Assembly: GCA_947494205.1 (NCBI GenBank)
Contig: CANLUH010000004.1
Coordinates: 340,773 to 404,772, forward strand
Reading direction: 5' to 3'
Origin: an uncultured Flavobacteriaceae bacterium
GTDB taxonomy: Bacteria; Bacteroidota; Bacteroidia; Flavobacteriales; Flavobacteriaceae
Length of the DNA: 64,000 nt
The notes beneath the pieces were generated by a model. The model had not been told where the DNA came from and did no database searches. It saw nothing but the letters and a program-made list of their open reading frames with translations. How positions within the stretch are numbered: the first letter of the stretch is position 1; each line of letters begins with the position of its first letter. Below are positions 58,985-62,862 of the stretch, in pieces. Both the position numbers and the translations under genes were made by a program.

Positions 58985-59031
58985 TTATCTATGAGATTTT
59001 TTAAATAACCTCAGTAACCTTTATAAATATA

Positions 59032-59141
59032 TAATTTTGCCCCAAAAAACCTCTATAAAAAAAATAGTCACATCATTTATTTTCGGTATCACATTATTGT
59101 TTTTATTATTTTTTGTAAAAATTCTTTTTAAAATTCAATAA
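59032..59141 (+). other. Promoter-like element with a possible small hydrophobic ORF
   Basis: TAATTTTG (59032-59039) is an exact -7 box but no -33 TTG is evident. A frame beginning at TTG 59037 would encode a 34-aa hydrophobic peptide (TSFIFGITLLFLLFFVKILF) ending at 59141, but that start coincides with the promoter itself. A terminator at 59170 would end a transcript of about 160 nt. Confidence 0.3.
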
Positions 59142-59169
59142 AATCTAGAGGATACTTATACTACTTAAA

Positions 59170-59204
59170 AAAAGATAATAGTTAAATACTTAACTATTAT
59201 CTTT
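59170..59204. terminator. Bidirectional terminator
   Basis: AAAGATAATAGTTAA and TTAACTATTATCTTT form a 15-bp stem with a 4-nt loop (59171-59204). On the minus strand it runs into a T-tract 45 bp after the lipoprotein gene stop. Confidence 0.8.
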
Positions 59205-59246
59205 CAGTAATTTGTTATTTCTTCTTTTACAATACAAAAATAAAAT

Positions 59247-59996
59247 TTAACAATGATCGGCAGCACCAGATAAAGCTCCTCCAATTGCTCCAAGAATGCC
59301 TCCAGCTGCACATCCTCCTACTGCACCTGCTGCAGTACCAGGGCCAGGAGCTGCTACAGTACCAACAGCAGCACCAACAGCAGCTCCTACACCGCAACCA
59401 GCTACACTACCTGTTACACCTCCTCCAAGAGTACCTGCAACACATTTTCCCCAACAGTCCCACCAACCTTCACATTCACTTCTTAATAATAACCTTTCTT
59501 CAGAATTAGCTTCATCTAAAGTACCCATCCAATCTACAAAAGCAATCATAATACCTATGCTATCTACTAATATTTGCTGTTCTAAAACTGCAATATTTGA
59601 ATTTAACACCTCATTATTAAGATCCATTAAATAGTTTTTATACTCTTCCTTTGTTCCATAAGAATTGGTCTGCGCTATAGTATTTGAATATTCAATAAAC
59701 TCATTAGAAAAAGAGACTTCTTCATCTGTTTTTGCTAAATGATTATTTAAACTCATATCTACAATCTTCAAACCTTGTTTTTTAGATTCATTAATAAATA
59801 TATCTCCAAGTTCTGTCTCGTTTAGATTAGTATTTTCTATTGATTTTTTTAATGTTAAATCAAATGATTTTATAAGCTTACTAATGTTTTCAGAATTATC
59901 TACTAAATTTTGTTGCTCTGCTAATTGATCTTCATTGCATGCAAAAAATGTTAAACTAAGTATTAATGCAATTGTAATTTTCGATAAATGTTTCAT
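59247..59996 (-). CDS. Lipoprotein with glycine-zipper, cysteine-rich C-terminal tail
   Basis: This 249-aa protein has a lipoprotein signal ending LTFFAC. About 145 residues of polar helical sequence follow. The tail of ~80 residues starts at CEGWWDCWGKCVAG and is dominated by Gly, Ala and Val with repeated GxxxG spacing (GSVAGCGVGAAVGAAVGTVA; GILGAIGGALSG). Seven cysteines lie in all, six of them in the tail, including one at the very end (ADHC). Such tails resemble class II bacteriocin or glycine-zipper membrane-active segments. No family is recognised with confidence. It lies downstream of a double-glycine-leader peptide gene on the same strand, 126 bp away. Confidence 0.7.
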   Translation of the reverse strand: MKHLSKITIALILSLTFFACNEDQLAEQQNLVDNSENISKLIKSFDLTLKKSIENTNLNETELGDIFINESKKQGLKIVDMSLNNHLAKTDEEVSFSNEFIEYSNTIAQTNSYGTKEEYKNYLMDLNNEVLNSNIAVLEQQILVDSIGIMIAFVDWMGTLDEANSEERLLLRSECEGWWDCWGKCVAGTLGGGVTGSVAGCGVGAAVGAAVGTVAAPGPGTAAGAVGGCAAGGILGAIGGALSGAADHC

Positions 59997-60091
59997 TTTT
60001 TAATGTTTTATTTAAGGCATAATTAATTATTGTAGGAATCTATGCCAATACTCCTTATGTAATAAAAGATAATCTCTTCCTATTTTTAATA

Positions 60092-60117
60092 GTGTAATAC
60101 TATACTGTGATACTATA
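60092..60117. repeat. Tandem 13-bp direct repeat upstream of the lipoprotein gene
   Basis: GTGTAATACTATA (60092-60104) is followed directly by CTGTGATACTATA (60105-60117), differing at two positions. It lies about 95 bp upstream of the lipoprotein start and could be an operator or a simple duplication. Confidence 0.4.
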
Positions 60118-60122
60118 TTTTT

Positions 60123-60335
60123 TTATACTATTGTACCTTCCTGTGTACCAGTAGTTGGATTTTGAAAAGAAATAAAACTTACTGTTGGTATATTAGCAGA
60201 TAAAACGCTCACTAAAGTTTCACCACCAGATGAGTCTCCCCATTGGCAACCTCCGTTAACTTTTCTTATTTCAACATCTGTAAGTTCTGTCACAGTTTCT
60301 TTTGTAAATACTAATTTTGTTTTGTCTTTTTTCAT
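60123..60335 (-). CDS. Double-glycine-leader peptide, RiPP/bacteriocin precursor-like (A)
   Basis: This 70-aa peptide has an acidic/basic leader of about 29 residues (KLVFTKETVTELTDVEIRKV) ending in NGG. The leader pattern with LTD-x-E-x-x-x-V-x-GG is that of Bacteroidetes RiPP or bacteriocin precursors processed by C39 peptidases. The core (CQWGDSSGGETLVSVLSANI...) is rich in Ser and Thr with a single Cys, so more than one thioether ring is impossible. No LanB, LanC, LanM or C39 transporter gene is in the window. A signalling or communication peptide is an alternative. Confidence 0.7.
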   Translation of the reverse strand: MKKDKTKLVFTKETVTELTDVEIRKVNGGCQWGDSSGGETLVSVLSANIPTVSFISFQNPTTGTQEGTIV

Positions 60336-60681
60336 CGTGATTATGTTTAATTATTAATATTTCTTGTTACGTTATTAGCATATACAAATGCTAAAAGAAC
60401 AACTAAGTAGAAATCCATTTAAGCTTAAATTAGATTGTAACAATATGTTTAAACACTTATTTGTTGGGGTCAAAATAATCGTAAAAAAAAGTGTAATACA
60501 AGGCATAGTCACCTAATATTTATAAAAGATAAGGCAATAATTAAAAACATAATTATTTGATTTTCAATTATTTAAAAGCAAAATATTAATTGTACTCTAA
60601 GAAGGCATAACATAAGGTACAAACACCGACTATTTATAAAAACGCGGGAATGAAGGAGTAAAAAAGATTTTTAATAAAGCA
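60336..60681. other. 346-bp gap with short repeated motifs
   Basis: This gap lies upstream of peptide A and downstream of the AraC-type regulator. It holds AGTGTAATAC at 60490-60499, also found at 60091-60100, and AAGGCATA at 60500-60507 and 60602-60609, also found at 60014-60021 near the lipoprotein start. No gene or clear promoter consensus is seen. Confidence 0.4.
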
Positions 60682-62412
60682 CTATAAATTCTCGTTTTGA
60701 ATTTTTTTAATGTAAACTGAAGGCGTTAATCCTGTTTCTGCTTTAAAATATCTACCAAAAGCATCAGAATTTTTATAACCTATCTCTTCGGCTATAGCTT
60801 TTATAGAATATGCTCTTAAACGTTTATTGTTCTTTAATTCTACAATAGCATAATTTATTCTTAGCTCATTAATATAGGTGCTAAAAGATTTTTCTAAATG
60901 TGTATTAACTATTTTAGATAAATAAGACGTGTTCGTTTTTAATTTTTTAGCTGTAGTGTGTAAGGAGCAATCTTTACGTAAAAAATAGTTAGTACTTTCT
61001 AATTTTTGAAGCTTATCTAATAAAGCCTTAACTTTGTCTGAATCCAGCTTATATTGCGAGTTTTTAATCCCTTCTGCTGTACCTTCTTTAACTTTAGTAC
61101 TTGTCAATGCATTATTAGCTTTATTCAATTTATTTTCTTCTAAAGTCTTTACTTTAACCATTAACTCATTAAAGCGTTTTTGGTTTTCTCTTGTCTTCTT
61201 TTTTAAATAAACAGTAATAGCAAATATTATAATAAGTAAGATAAAACTAAGTCCTGCCCAAAACCATTTTGTTTTTTTCTCTCCTTCTTTTTCTAAAATC
61301 TCTTTTTCTAAATCAGATTGATGGTTCTTCTTTAAATATTGAACGTTTTCATTTAAAGTAATTTCATATATTTTATCTATAATGTTAAAATAGTCTTTAA
61401 AGTAAACTTCTTTAGCTATACTATGTCTTGAAAAGTATTCATTAGATAGTTCAACAGCTCCAATCTTTTTATAAGCCTCTGCAAATAATTTATAATTTTT
61501 ATGCAATTGAAAGGCTGTTGCTTTAGAGTCTGAATTTTCTATTTCTTTTAAATATGTAATAGTCTTATTGTAATCTTCTTGTTTATAAGCAATACTAGCT
61601 AGTTCATATTTTGCTTGCTTAATAAATGTTATATTTTTTAATGTATTTGCACAAGTTAAAGCGTCTTCAAAATCGGCTATAGCTAATGCTTTATTATTTT
61701 TCACAACATGTATTTTTGCTCTTGAGCTAAGCATATAATACATAAATTTTAAATTATTTTTAGCTTTCGCTTGTGCAATCCCTTTTTCCACAAGAGGCAA
61801 TGCTTTATCTGTTTTATTAGATTGTAAGTAAGCATCTATTAGCTTTTTTCTAGTAAAACGTTCTCGTTTAGAATCTTTTGCTTTTAAAGCGTCTTCATAC
61901 AACTCTTCTAACGAAAAAATTACATTTTCTGGCACAGCTTTATGAGATTCCACCTTACTTTTAATTATTTCGATTGCAAAATCAATATAATCTGTAGAAT
62001 ACCCCTCTTTTTGTTTTCTAGCCAGCTCCAATAACTTTCTATAAGATTTTAATGCCTTATTGTATTTATAATTATTGTCATAAATTCTAGCGATGAAATA
62101 TATGTTTACTATAGAATCTACTGGTTTGTTAAATAAACTAGATCTTTTAAAATAATAGTAAGGGATACTATCCAAATCTCCTTTATTTTCTTGAGCAATA
62201 GCCATAGCTGCATAAGCCATAGACAGATTACTTACATTGTTAGCCTCTTCGTTTAACTTTATATATTTATGACAAAATGTTATTGCCTTTTCTGGATTAC
62301 TATAAATATGCTTTTTTATAGAGTCTCCAATTGTTCTTATAGATTCTTGGGCAGAAACATTAAGAATAAAGGTAGCAACTAATAAAATAAATACAATTCT
62401 TTTAAGAGACAT
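60682..62412 (-). CDS. TPR-containing membrane-bound AraC-type regulator
   Basis: This 576-aa protein starts at ATG 62412, which gives a proper signal peptide (LKRIVFILLVATFILNVSAQ). About 330 residues of TPR-like helices (presumably periplasmic) follow. One membrane helix (FWAGLSFILLIIIFAITVYL) precedes a coiled region. The last ~95 residues form an AraC-type double helix-turn-helix (TAKKLKTNTSYLSKIVN; IKAIAEEIGYKNSDAFGRYF). It is a one-component sensor-regulator of the Bacteroidetes type. It lies between two double-glycine peptides and diverges from peptide B across a 32-bp palindrome, suggesting control of this locus. Confidence 0.88.
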   Translation of the reverse strand: MSLKRIVFILLVATFILNVSAQESIRTIGDSIKKHIYSNPEKAITFCHKYIKLNEEANNVSNLSMAYAAMAIAQENKGDLDSIPYYYFKRSSLFNKPVDSIVNIYFIARIYDNNYKYNKALKSYRKLLELARKQKEGYSTDYIDFAIEIIKSKVESHKAVPENVIFSLEELYEDALKAKDSKRERFTRKKLIDAYLQSNKTDKALPLVEKGIAQAKAKNNLKFMYYMLSSRAKIHVVKNNKALAIADFEDALTCANTLKNITFIKQAKYELASIAYKQEDYNKTITYLKEIENSDSKATAFQLHKNYKLFAEAYKKIGAVELSNEYFSRHSIAKEVYFKDYFNIIDKIYEITLNENVQYLKKNHQSDLEKEILEKEGEKKTKWFWAGLSFILLIIIFAITVYLKKKTRENQKRFNELMVKVKTLEENKLNKANNALTSTKVKEGTAEGIKNSQYKLDSDKVKALLDKLQKLESTNYFLRKDCSLHTTAKKLKTNTSYLSKIVNTHLEKSFSTYINELRINYAIVELKNNKRLRAYSIKAIAEEIGYKNSDAFGRYFKAETGLTPSVYIKKIQNENL

Positions 62413-62460
62413 TGAAATTAAAAAATAAGATATTGTTAATAAAGCTATTAGACAGTAAAA

Positions 62461-62492
62461 CATAACCCAATATTTATAAATATTGGGTTATG
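62461..62492. promoter_or_regulatory. Perfect 32-bp palindrome between regulator and peptide B
   Basis: CATAACCCAATATTTA (62461-62476) is followed immediately by its exact reverse complement TAAATATTGGGTTATG (62477-62492). It lies 49 bp upstream of the AraC-type regulator start and 57 bp upstream of peptide B, between divergent genes, so it is not an ordinary terminator. The plus strand continues TTCTTTTAAATT, which could allow attenuation. Confidence 0.6.
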
Positions 62493-62549
62493 TTCTTTTA
62501 AATTATCAGACAAAATTAAGCATATTTGTCCAAAACAAAATAACAAAGT

Positions 62550-62771
62550 ATGAAAACTCAAGCAAAGCGTATTTTAGAATTTAAAAAAAGTGGAATTATA
62601 GAACTAAATAACGATCAATTACATCGCATTAATGGAGGTACTGGCAATACAGCTACCACTACCGAGCTAACTGGCACTGGAATTACTTCGACTATGCCTT
62701 GCATAGTAACAACAACACTCACTATAGATTCTAACGGATCTACATTTCTTTGTGACCCTGTTGGTCCTTAA
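62550..62771 (+). CDS. Double-glycine-leader peptide, RiPP/bacteriocin precursor-like (B)
   Basis: This 73-aa peptide has a leader (RILEFKKSGIIELNNDQLHR) ending in INGG, the same LNxxQLxxxxGG pattern as peptide A and other Bacteroidetes precursors. The core of 43 residues is dominated by Thr, Ser and Gly (TGNTATTTELTGTGITSTMP) with two cysteines. This fits a dehydrated or thioether-bridged peptide, but no modifying enzyme is in the window. It is transcribed away from the AraC-type regulator. Confidence 0.72.
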   Translation: MKTQAKRILEFKKSGIIELNNDQLHRINGGTGNTATTTELTGTGITSTMPCIVTTTLTIDSNGSTFLCDPVGP

Positions 62772-62786
62772 AAGCAAAATCAACTA

Positions 62787-62826
62787 TATTCCCAAACGAG
62801 TATTTATTTATGCACGTTTGGGAATA
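62787..62826. terminator. Hairpin between peptide B and dinB
   Basis: TATTCCCAAACG (62787-62798) pairs with CGTTTGGGAATA (62815-62826). There is no strong T-tract on either strand, so it may be a weak terminator for the two convergent genes. Confidence 0.55.
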
Positions 62827-62862
62827 CTTACTTTACAAAAAACAGAAGTTGATTAACAATTA

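Follow-up and report, generated by a model that had tools for sequence, protein, structure and literature searches.

Double-glycine regulons of the Blp/Com type in Gram-positive bacteria each comprise several peptide genes, and their signal and products share a leader and an exporter. RRNPP receptors join a tetratricopeptide repeat (TPR) sensor to a DNA-binding domain. In Firmicutes, these receptors are intracellular, according to the accessible part of PMC10075063. Class I LanAs of Bacteroidetes carry LxLxKx5L leaders, many of which end in a double glycine (GG), and a C39 protease is often encoded in their cluster, as described in the accessible text of Walker et al. 2020 (PMC7268733); the same text names pinensins as the sole class I lanthipeptides isolated from Bacteroidetes and describes zinc-dependent dehydrogenases of lanthipeptide clusters (LanJA type) that turn dehydro residues into D-amino acids. 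TPR genes in two clusters for ribosomally synthesized and post-translationally modified peptides (RiPPs) of Bacteroidales appear in the accessible part of PMC10352776, which also touches on the binding of pheromones in other bacteria. Here, we analyzed a 64,000-nucleotide stretch (the window; C4:340773-404772) of the genome of an uncultured Flavobacteriaceae bacterium (5.06 Mb in 86 contigs), in which two short GG-leader peptides flank a TPR-AraC regulator. We consider it probable that this locus belongs, as a satellite, to a LanB-dependent RiPP system in which no LanC was detected, and that membrane-bound TPR-AraC proteins switch on precursors and maturation genes as one regulon.

This system shares with the class I lanthipeptides of Bacteroidetes the leader family (NF038153), the GG site, a full-length LanB and a C39-family protease in the cluster (PMC7268733, accessible part), but differs from them in that no LanC was found, that its large precursor arrays have unlike cores, that satellites lie far from the enzymes and that TPR-AraC regulators are interleaved with precursors and share a promoter element with them. 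An alcohol-dehydrogenase GroES-like enzyme beside LanB recalls LanJA-type reduction, a function suggested by analogy, although here no cyclase was found. As in RRNPP systems, a TPR sensor joined to a DNA-binding domain is encoded next to the gene of a secreted peptide; unlike in these systems, the regulator, which has a C-terminal AraC helix-turn-helix (HTH), is by its hydropathy a putative membrane protein whose sensor would lie outside, and the peptide carries a GG leader, with LanB encoded in trans. Compared with Blp/Com, a one-component membrane regulator would replace the histidine kinase and the response regulator, and LanB modification would be involved. In the literature found, which mostly excluded subscription papers and was in part accessible, neither TPR-AraC regulators with lanthipeptide-type precursors in Flavobacteriia nor the promoter element are described.

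The four open reading frames (ORFs) listed in an earlier sequence-only reading of this DNA, two peptides, a regulator and a lipoprotein, are indeed present:

60123-60335, minus strand: precursor 1, with an L1a/GG leader and a core starting with CQWGDSSGG; above the NF038153 cut-off
60682-62412 (longest ORF to 62463), minus strand: TPR-AraC regulator, with a hydrophobic N-terminal segment, a TPR region, a hydrophobic stretch and a C-terminal AraC HTH
62550-62771, plus strand: precursor 2, with an L1a/GG leader (MKTQ...RINGG), divergent to the regulator
59247-59996, minus strand: lipoprotein whose glycine-zipper tail contains Cys, following precursor 1 on the same strand after 126 bp; accessory

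Searching the four regulators of the host genome against genome contigs returned 39 loci, six of which (L035-L040, from five Bizionia and Lacinutrix genomes) carry the same system. With the host genome and one genome added later (G332), this gave a set of seven distinct genomes with 20 regulators. An L1a precursor is encoded on the opposite strand just upstream of every one of these 20 regulators, the window's included: 14/14 whose upstream side was covered at first, a fifteenth once its region was extended upstream (one good and two weak leader matches), and 5/5 in G332, as had been forecast beforehand. Co-directional precursors follow the regulator in most units, an exception being the host's own L028_10238, for which the next precursor lies on the other strand. 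Gene order across the set thus shows a repeated unit of divergent precursor(s), a predicted TPR-AraC regulator and, mostly, co-directional precursors.

Units of this kind also share a candidate promoter element, which is found in the window as follows:

62460-62493, no strand: candidate operator, a perfect palindrome of 34 bp with TTTATAAA (62473-62480) at its centre, lying between the regulator and precursor 2
62523-62528, plus strand: TATTTG, -7-like element of precursor 2, its TTTG starting 44 bp after the TTTATAAA of the operator
60519-60526, minus strand: candidate operator TTTATAAA of precursor 1, with standard spacing
60471-60478, minus strand: TTATTTTG, -7-like element of precursor 1
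60633-60640, minus strand: second TTTATAAA copy, ~40 bp past the regulator stop, with non-standard TTTG spacing

Since the first ATG of the regulator (62463) sits within the perfect palindrome, a start at Met18 (62412) is more likely. Across the set, TTTATAAA is the commonest 8-mer both upstream of the regulators and after their stops: it occurs in 20/20 upstream regions (400 bp; 500 Markov simulations gave a mean of 3.0 and a maximum of 9) and in 19/20 post-stop regions (160 bp; mean 1.1 and maximum 5 in 500 simulations). It often lies at the centre of a palindrome, and the arm symmetry of the upstream sites exceeds that of 95 background sites (p=2e-6). The pattern TTTATAAA-N41..45-TTTG (full pattern) is oriented towards the divergent precursor upstream of 14/20 regulators, or 18/20 if TTT[GA] is allowed, and is found in 18/20 downstream regions, with the reverse orientation in 1/20 of each set; we take TTTG to be part of the Bacteroidota -7 element TAnnTTTG. 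TTTATAAA also lies 140-188 bp before HlyD in the 4/4 clusters examined, each time within the full pattern, and the full pattern precedes a lone precursor on contig C18, while one on C9 has no TTTATAAA. Gapped 4-mer counts of promoter regions had led to the element, with TTTA-TAAA first upstream among other A/T-rich words (20/20 upstream regions; rough shuffles reached 13). Altogether, these counts show the same predicted promoter element before most precursors of both sets and before the operon of HlyD, C39-ABC, LanB and MDR dehydrogenase, and the pairing of the TPR-AraC regulator with the peptides that the sequence-only reading had proposed is upheld in essence by this shared element and by the 20/20 regulators.

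A pattern scanner labels the 34-bp palindrome terminator-like; it is located at the 5' ends of two divergent genes. A sigma-70-type promoter scan, whose model does not cover Bacteroidota promoters, gave 19 matches against a shuffle mean of 22.7. In the far TPR-AraC set, TTTATAAA was counted at 12/38 loci upstream and 9/38 downstream (without simulation) and the full pattern at 1/20 after the stop, so that this set does not clearly share the element.

An alternative that we find unlikely is that another factor, such as an alternative sigma factor or a global regulator, binds TTTATAAA and that the TPR-AraC genes are mere members of its regulon. The centre of the element is identical even though the TPR parts of the regulators differ, AraC binding is predicted, and the strict spacing to the -7 element would also fit a signal of a promoter class; but the sites flank the regulators, satellites included (the window; G332 C1:2050736), the palindrome arms differ between units, and the AraC domains, which average 77 % identity over the 20 regulators against 35 % for the TPR parts, could suit one core site. 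Moreover, TTTATAAA is present in the 300 bp upstream of 14 control genes out of 121 (taken from window 1-58500, other stretches of the host genome and two stretches from the same genus), and one of the 121 has the full pattern, a pattern that is also met elsewhere in the scanned stretches, for example three times on the minus strand of window 1-58000.

The window peptides are not orphans. A genome-wide search located the sole LanB of the genome outside the window, at C3:3213-5159, as one 1039-aa protein with N and C domains (PF04738, 412.6 bits; PF14028, 225 bits). Five C39 domains are encoded in the genome, none of them in the window, and one (C3:7026-7424) lies beside LanB. Contig C3 starts with an extra copy of the precursor found at the end of contig C19, followed by an MDR dehydrogenase, LanB, C39-ABC and HlyD, and the end of C19 carries precursors (15 leader matches at E<=1e-4) and three TPR-AraC genes. 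We infer that C19 and C3 adjoin, because of the repeated end sequence and because array and enzymes neighbour each other on one contig in G332. The genes for C39-ABC and HlyD, which adjoin LanB and lie in trans to the window, would provide for C39 export of GG-leader peptides, and LanB is accompanied by MDR, C39 and HlyD in the 5/5 clusters that cover it (own, L036/L158, L039, L040, G332). The MDR enzyme has an alcohol-dehydrogenase GroES-like domain; among PDB sequences, a 'ripening-induced protein' (4e-7) alone matches it within the 1e-5 limit. Identity between the window regulator and its three main-cluster paralogues amounts to 45, 39 and 35 %, and a tree places the window regulator with the host's own L028_13262 and with Bizionia L035_9938 (95/92). 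The sequence-only reading of a RiPP-type system with enzymes elsewhere is therefore supported by LanB, C39-ABC and HlyD on C3, whereas its term "orphan" has to be given up for a satellite of a larger system in the same genome. Its suggestion that LanB, LanC and C39 be sought in the rest of the genome led to LanB and C39 but to no LanC match, and its statement that the window has no LanB, LanC, LanM, radical SAM or C39 gene holds for LanB, LanC and C39, the families that the search covered (LanM and radical SAM were left out).

Some features of these clusters stand apart. In the complete genome of Lacinutrix neustonica (L158 2556-8174, L128), MDR, LanB and dinB are fragmented across frames, possibly through sequencing or assembly errors. 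The precursor array of G332 ends with an MDR dehydrogenase gene (L176 7563-8675), additional to the one next to LanB. Near-identical precursors are found in tandem runs (L175 17728-18924, L039 13914-14919, the C19 and C3 ends), and several assemblies break there.

No LanC (PF05147) matched in the host genome or in the other six of the seven system genomes, some of whose assemblies may be incomplete; two of the seven handles searched besides G332, namely G195 and G323, appear to be one genome. In a family sample of 299 genomes, NF038153 was matched at E<=0.001 in 11, the host and G195 included, and the same PF05147 search found LanC in 8/9 of the others. Since LanC is thus present in most other L1a genomes and was not found in the seven system genomes, the system is better not classed among the lanthipeptides; it is predicted to be LanB-dependent with a LanJA-like MDR enzyme. 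The best reading of its products is that they are LanB-dehydrated, perhaps reduced, peptides, and a role of the host MDR enzyme in turning dehydro residues into D-amino acids is possible by analogy. Ring formation without LanC above pH 7.5 is mentioned in the accessible part of PMC9889658.

Both window peptides carry the class I lanthipeptide leader type of Bacteroidota, and both leaders end in NGG, a GG cleavage site. Peptide 1 scores 26.3 bits against NF038153 (lant_leader_L1a; cut-off 22), while peptide 2, at 14.1 bits, falls under the cut-off but aligns with 15 other leaders of the genome; in the comparison with RiPP precursor models proposed earlier, the first peptide passes the cut-off and the second does not. 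NF038153 has 21 matches in the genome at E<=1; of the ten above the cut-off, C19 carries nine and the remaining one is peptide 1. With a hidden Markov model (HMM) trained on 17 leaders of the genome, the two window peptides are the sole matches in the entire window at E<=1, although their scores are partly circular because both belong to the training set. The core of precursor 2 has 43 residues, is rich in Thr and Ser and contains two Cys. That of peptide 1 belongs to a type (CQW/CQF..SSG) found in six genomes, the host's and five others, and not in the host's own main cluster. Cys is missing from 44/120 unique cores, and it is present in 19/20 divergent cores and 57/100 others; counts of motifs, core types and Cys exclude leader matches weaker than E=1e-4, and one counted core row is empty where a contig ends. 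Lone L1a precursors, both under the NF038153 cut-off, are seen at L030 6421-6579 (C9) and L031 5323-5487 (C18); the one on C9 follows a tRNA-Leu gene of the same strand at a distance of 136 bp.

The locus looks like a satellite copy of the repeated unit of the main system, and it sits in a stretch that is missing from relatives:

58985-62862, no strand: stretch that two same-genus relatives lack; in them, hardly any sequence separates the flanking 95-aa ORF from dinB

This stretch was probably inserted in the host lineage, because the site is empty in G195 and G299 (same genus), with ~40 and ~75 bp between the 95-aa ORF and dinB, and because pyk lies ~115 bp from dinB in Lacinutrix neustonica. 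In G332, the fifth regulator lies ~190 kb from the main cluster. The empty site in two same-genus genomes, the lack of an orthologue in relatives and the low NF038153 score of peptide 2 would all be expected if the satellite were a decaying relic copied from the main cluster and no longer expressed. We nevertheless regard such a relic as quite improbable, since all frames are open, correctly spaced candidate operators precede both precursors, one of them in the perfect palindrome, and the core type of peptide 1 recurs in other genomes.

Turning to the regulator itself, profile searches gave an HTH_18 match above the cut-off and weak TPR matches, and its AlphaFold2 model (pLDDT 87.7, pTM 0.63) consists of a helical-repeat superhelix and an AraC domain, the second hydrophobic stretch falling within one long helix. 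Its hydropathy peaks at 2.1 around residue 16 and at 2.5 around residue 402, the second peak being followed by KKK; these peaks do not fit an intracellular receptor of the RRNPP kind and suggest a membrane protein with the sensor outside. All 20 related regulators have a hydrophobic stretch between the TPR and AraC parts (19-residue mean of at least 1.8). The solved folds nearest to the TPR model are peptide-binding TPR superhelices (LGN), with the quorum sensor NprR at rank 34. That the regulator might sense its divergent peptide is plausible, although neither the core-motif test nor the coevolution test described below bore it out.

Several points weigh against a common regulon and against peptide sensing. 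The seven genomes are related, two loci (L038/L039) being nearly identical, so that the 20 regulators are not independent events, five of the genomes have no stated completeness, and some of the seven are uncultured assemblies. The promoter element was counted on the regions where it had been found, the HlyD and C18 sites being checked afterwards; exact TTTG is missing at 6/20 upstream sites, the full pattern is missing downstream of two of the 20 regulators (no site at L040, another spacing at L157), and arm symmetry is borderline for the downstream sites (p=0.054, 95 background sites). A N-terminal hydropathy peak of at least 1.6 is seen in just 12/20 regulators, and the fold matches to TPR superhelices are generic, suggestive rather than specific. 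A search of 60 genomes, the host's among them, found no orthologue of the window satellite, whose proposed function therefore has to be argued by way of paralogues. Both tests of a match between peptide and regulator failed: the core motif [ST][ST]x[IL]C, a candidate mark of divergent peptides (18/20 vs 8/100 in the discovery set, where it was first counted), was not replicated in G332 (3/7 vs 9/41, one-sided p=0.23), and a coevolution of TPR parts and cores (Mantel r=0.67) came from close orthologues alone, r falling to 0.08 over the 183/190 pairs whose TPR identity is below 60 %. That the TPR part diverges faster was also rejected as a sign of sensing, because a like asymmetry is seen among far TPR-AraC proteins, some of which (Kordia) may themselves be peptide-linked.

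These failed tests would be expected if the precursors encoded ordinary class I lanthipeptide-type antimicrobials and the regulator answered to stress or nutrients, with no peptide signalling, an explanation that has a real chance of being correct, if somewhat short of an even one. TPR-AraC genes are common (10 matches in the host genome at 1e-20 or better, some of them pieces of one gene), and the leader family and the pairing of GG with C39 are known for class I LanAs of Bacteroidetes (PMC7268733, accessible part). This explanation overlaps with what is shown for the regulon and denies just that the peptide is sensed and that the link is specific; the divergent precursor at 20/20 regulators and the cis-element common to precursors and export operon argue that the linkage is specific, and the lack of LanC matches in the system genomes does not suit ordinary lanthipeptides.

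In the regulon that we favour, the inner membrane would anchor the regulator, whose TPR superhelix would lie in the periplasm, and binding of a ligand to the TPR part would lead the cytoplasmic AraC domain to bind the palindrome upstream of the -7 element, switching on the precursors and the distant biosynthesis and export operon. LanB would then dehydrate Ser and Thr residues of the cores, dehydro residues may be converted to D-amino acids by the MDR enzyme, and cleavage after GG and export of the peptides would fall to the C39 transporter. As it is encoded next to its own regulator, the divergent peptide would be the first candidate ligand (autoinduction). Going further, we tentatively put forward, at somewhat less than even confidence, a one-component pheromone system of Bacteroidota in which periplasmic TPR-AraC fusions read divergent LanB-modified GG-leader peptides through several parallel channels, some of them satellites, and in which the common palindromic element would control arrays of dehydrated or D-amino-acid peptides together with a shared maturation and export operon.

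We examined a wider link in 18 regions of the nine other NF038153-carrying genomes; 25 of the 34 matches in these genomes fall in them. In 6/18 regions (L142, L144, L145, L148, L152, L153), a precursor and a TPR-AraC gene are no more than 1 kb apart; the TPR-AraC gene of L153 is read in two frames. LanC is encoded inside the L144 (G138) and L153 (G177) regions (20 kb). Elsewhere, a split LanB lies directly before a TPR-AraC regulator in an uncultured Croceitalea (L063 5814-10420). Since TPR-AraC genes are thus found beside LanB or in LanC regions, this type of regulator may serve ordinary LanB/LanC clusters too. Among the far loci, weak leader matches (E<=1) occur at 8/9 Kordia loci, and Flavobacteriaceae bacterium R38 (L043 9077-16599) has four tandem TPR-AraC genes with no recognized precursor.

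The lipoprotein gene, which had been counted as a member of the system, is not part of the conserved unit: of the proposed four-gene arrangement, regulator and precursors recur in relatives but the lipoprotein does not. As a conserved fourth part it was rejected, with matches in just 8/299 family genomes at E<=0.001, own included. Five of the seven other matches look unrelated on inspection, and that of L132 (G143) is a glycine-zipper stretch within a longer, different protein. Among the ORFs of 74 sources (window, L028-L073, L139-L158, L174-L180), the window copy alone was found at E<=0.001. L130 154-2162 (G179) encodes a lipoprotein whose glycine-zipper tail resembles that of the window copy, near a TPR-less AraC gene, possibly a distinct lipoprotein-AraC pairing.

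Altogether, gene order and promoter sequences suggest a peptide-signalling circuit of a kind for which we found no description. On this reading, two seemingly orphaned peptides represent a single channel among several in one regulon, which has a named cis-element and one LanB and for which no cyclase was found. If the regulators do read their divergent peptides, the system would be a genetically testable peptide-signalling circuit of Bacteroidota, and it would open a route to LanC-free, possibly D-amino-acid-containing peptides, with channels that could be tested separately by reporter.

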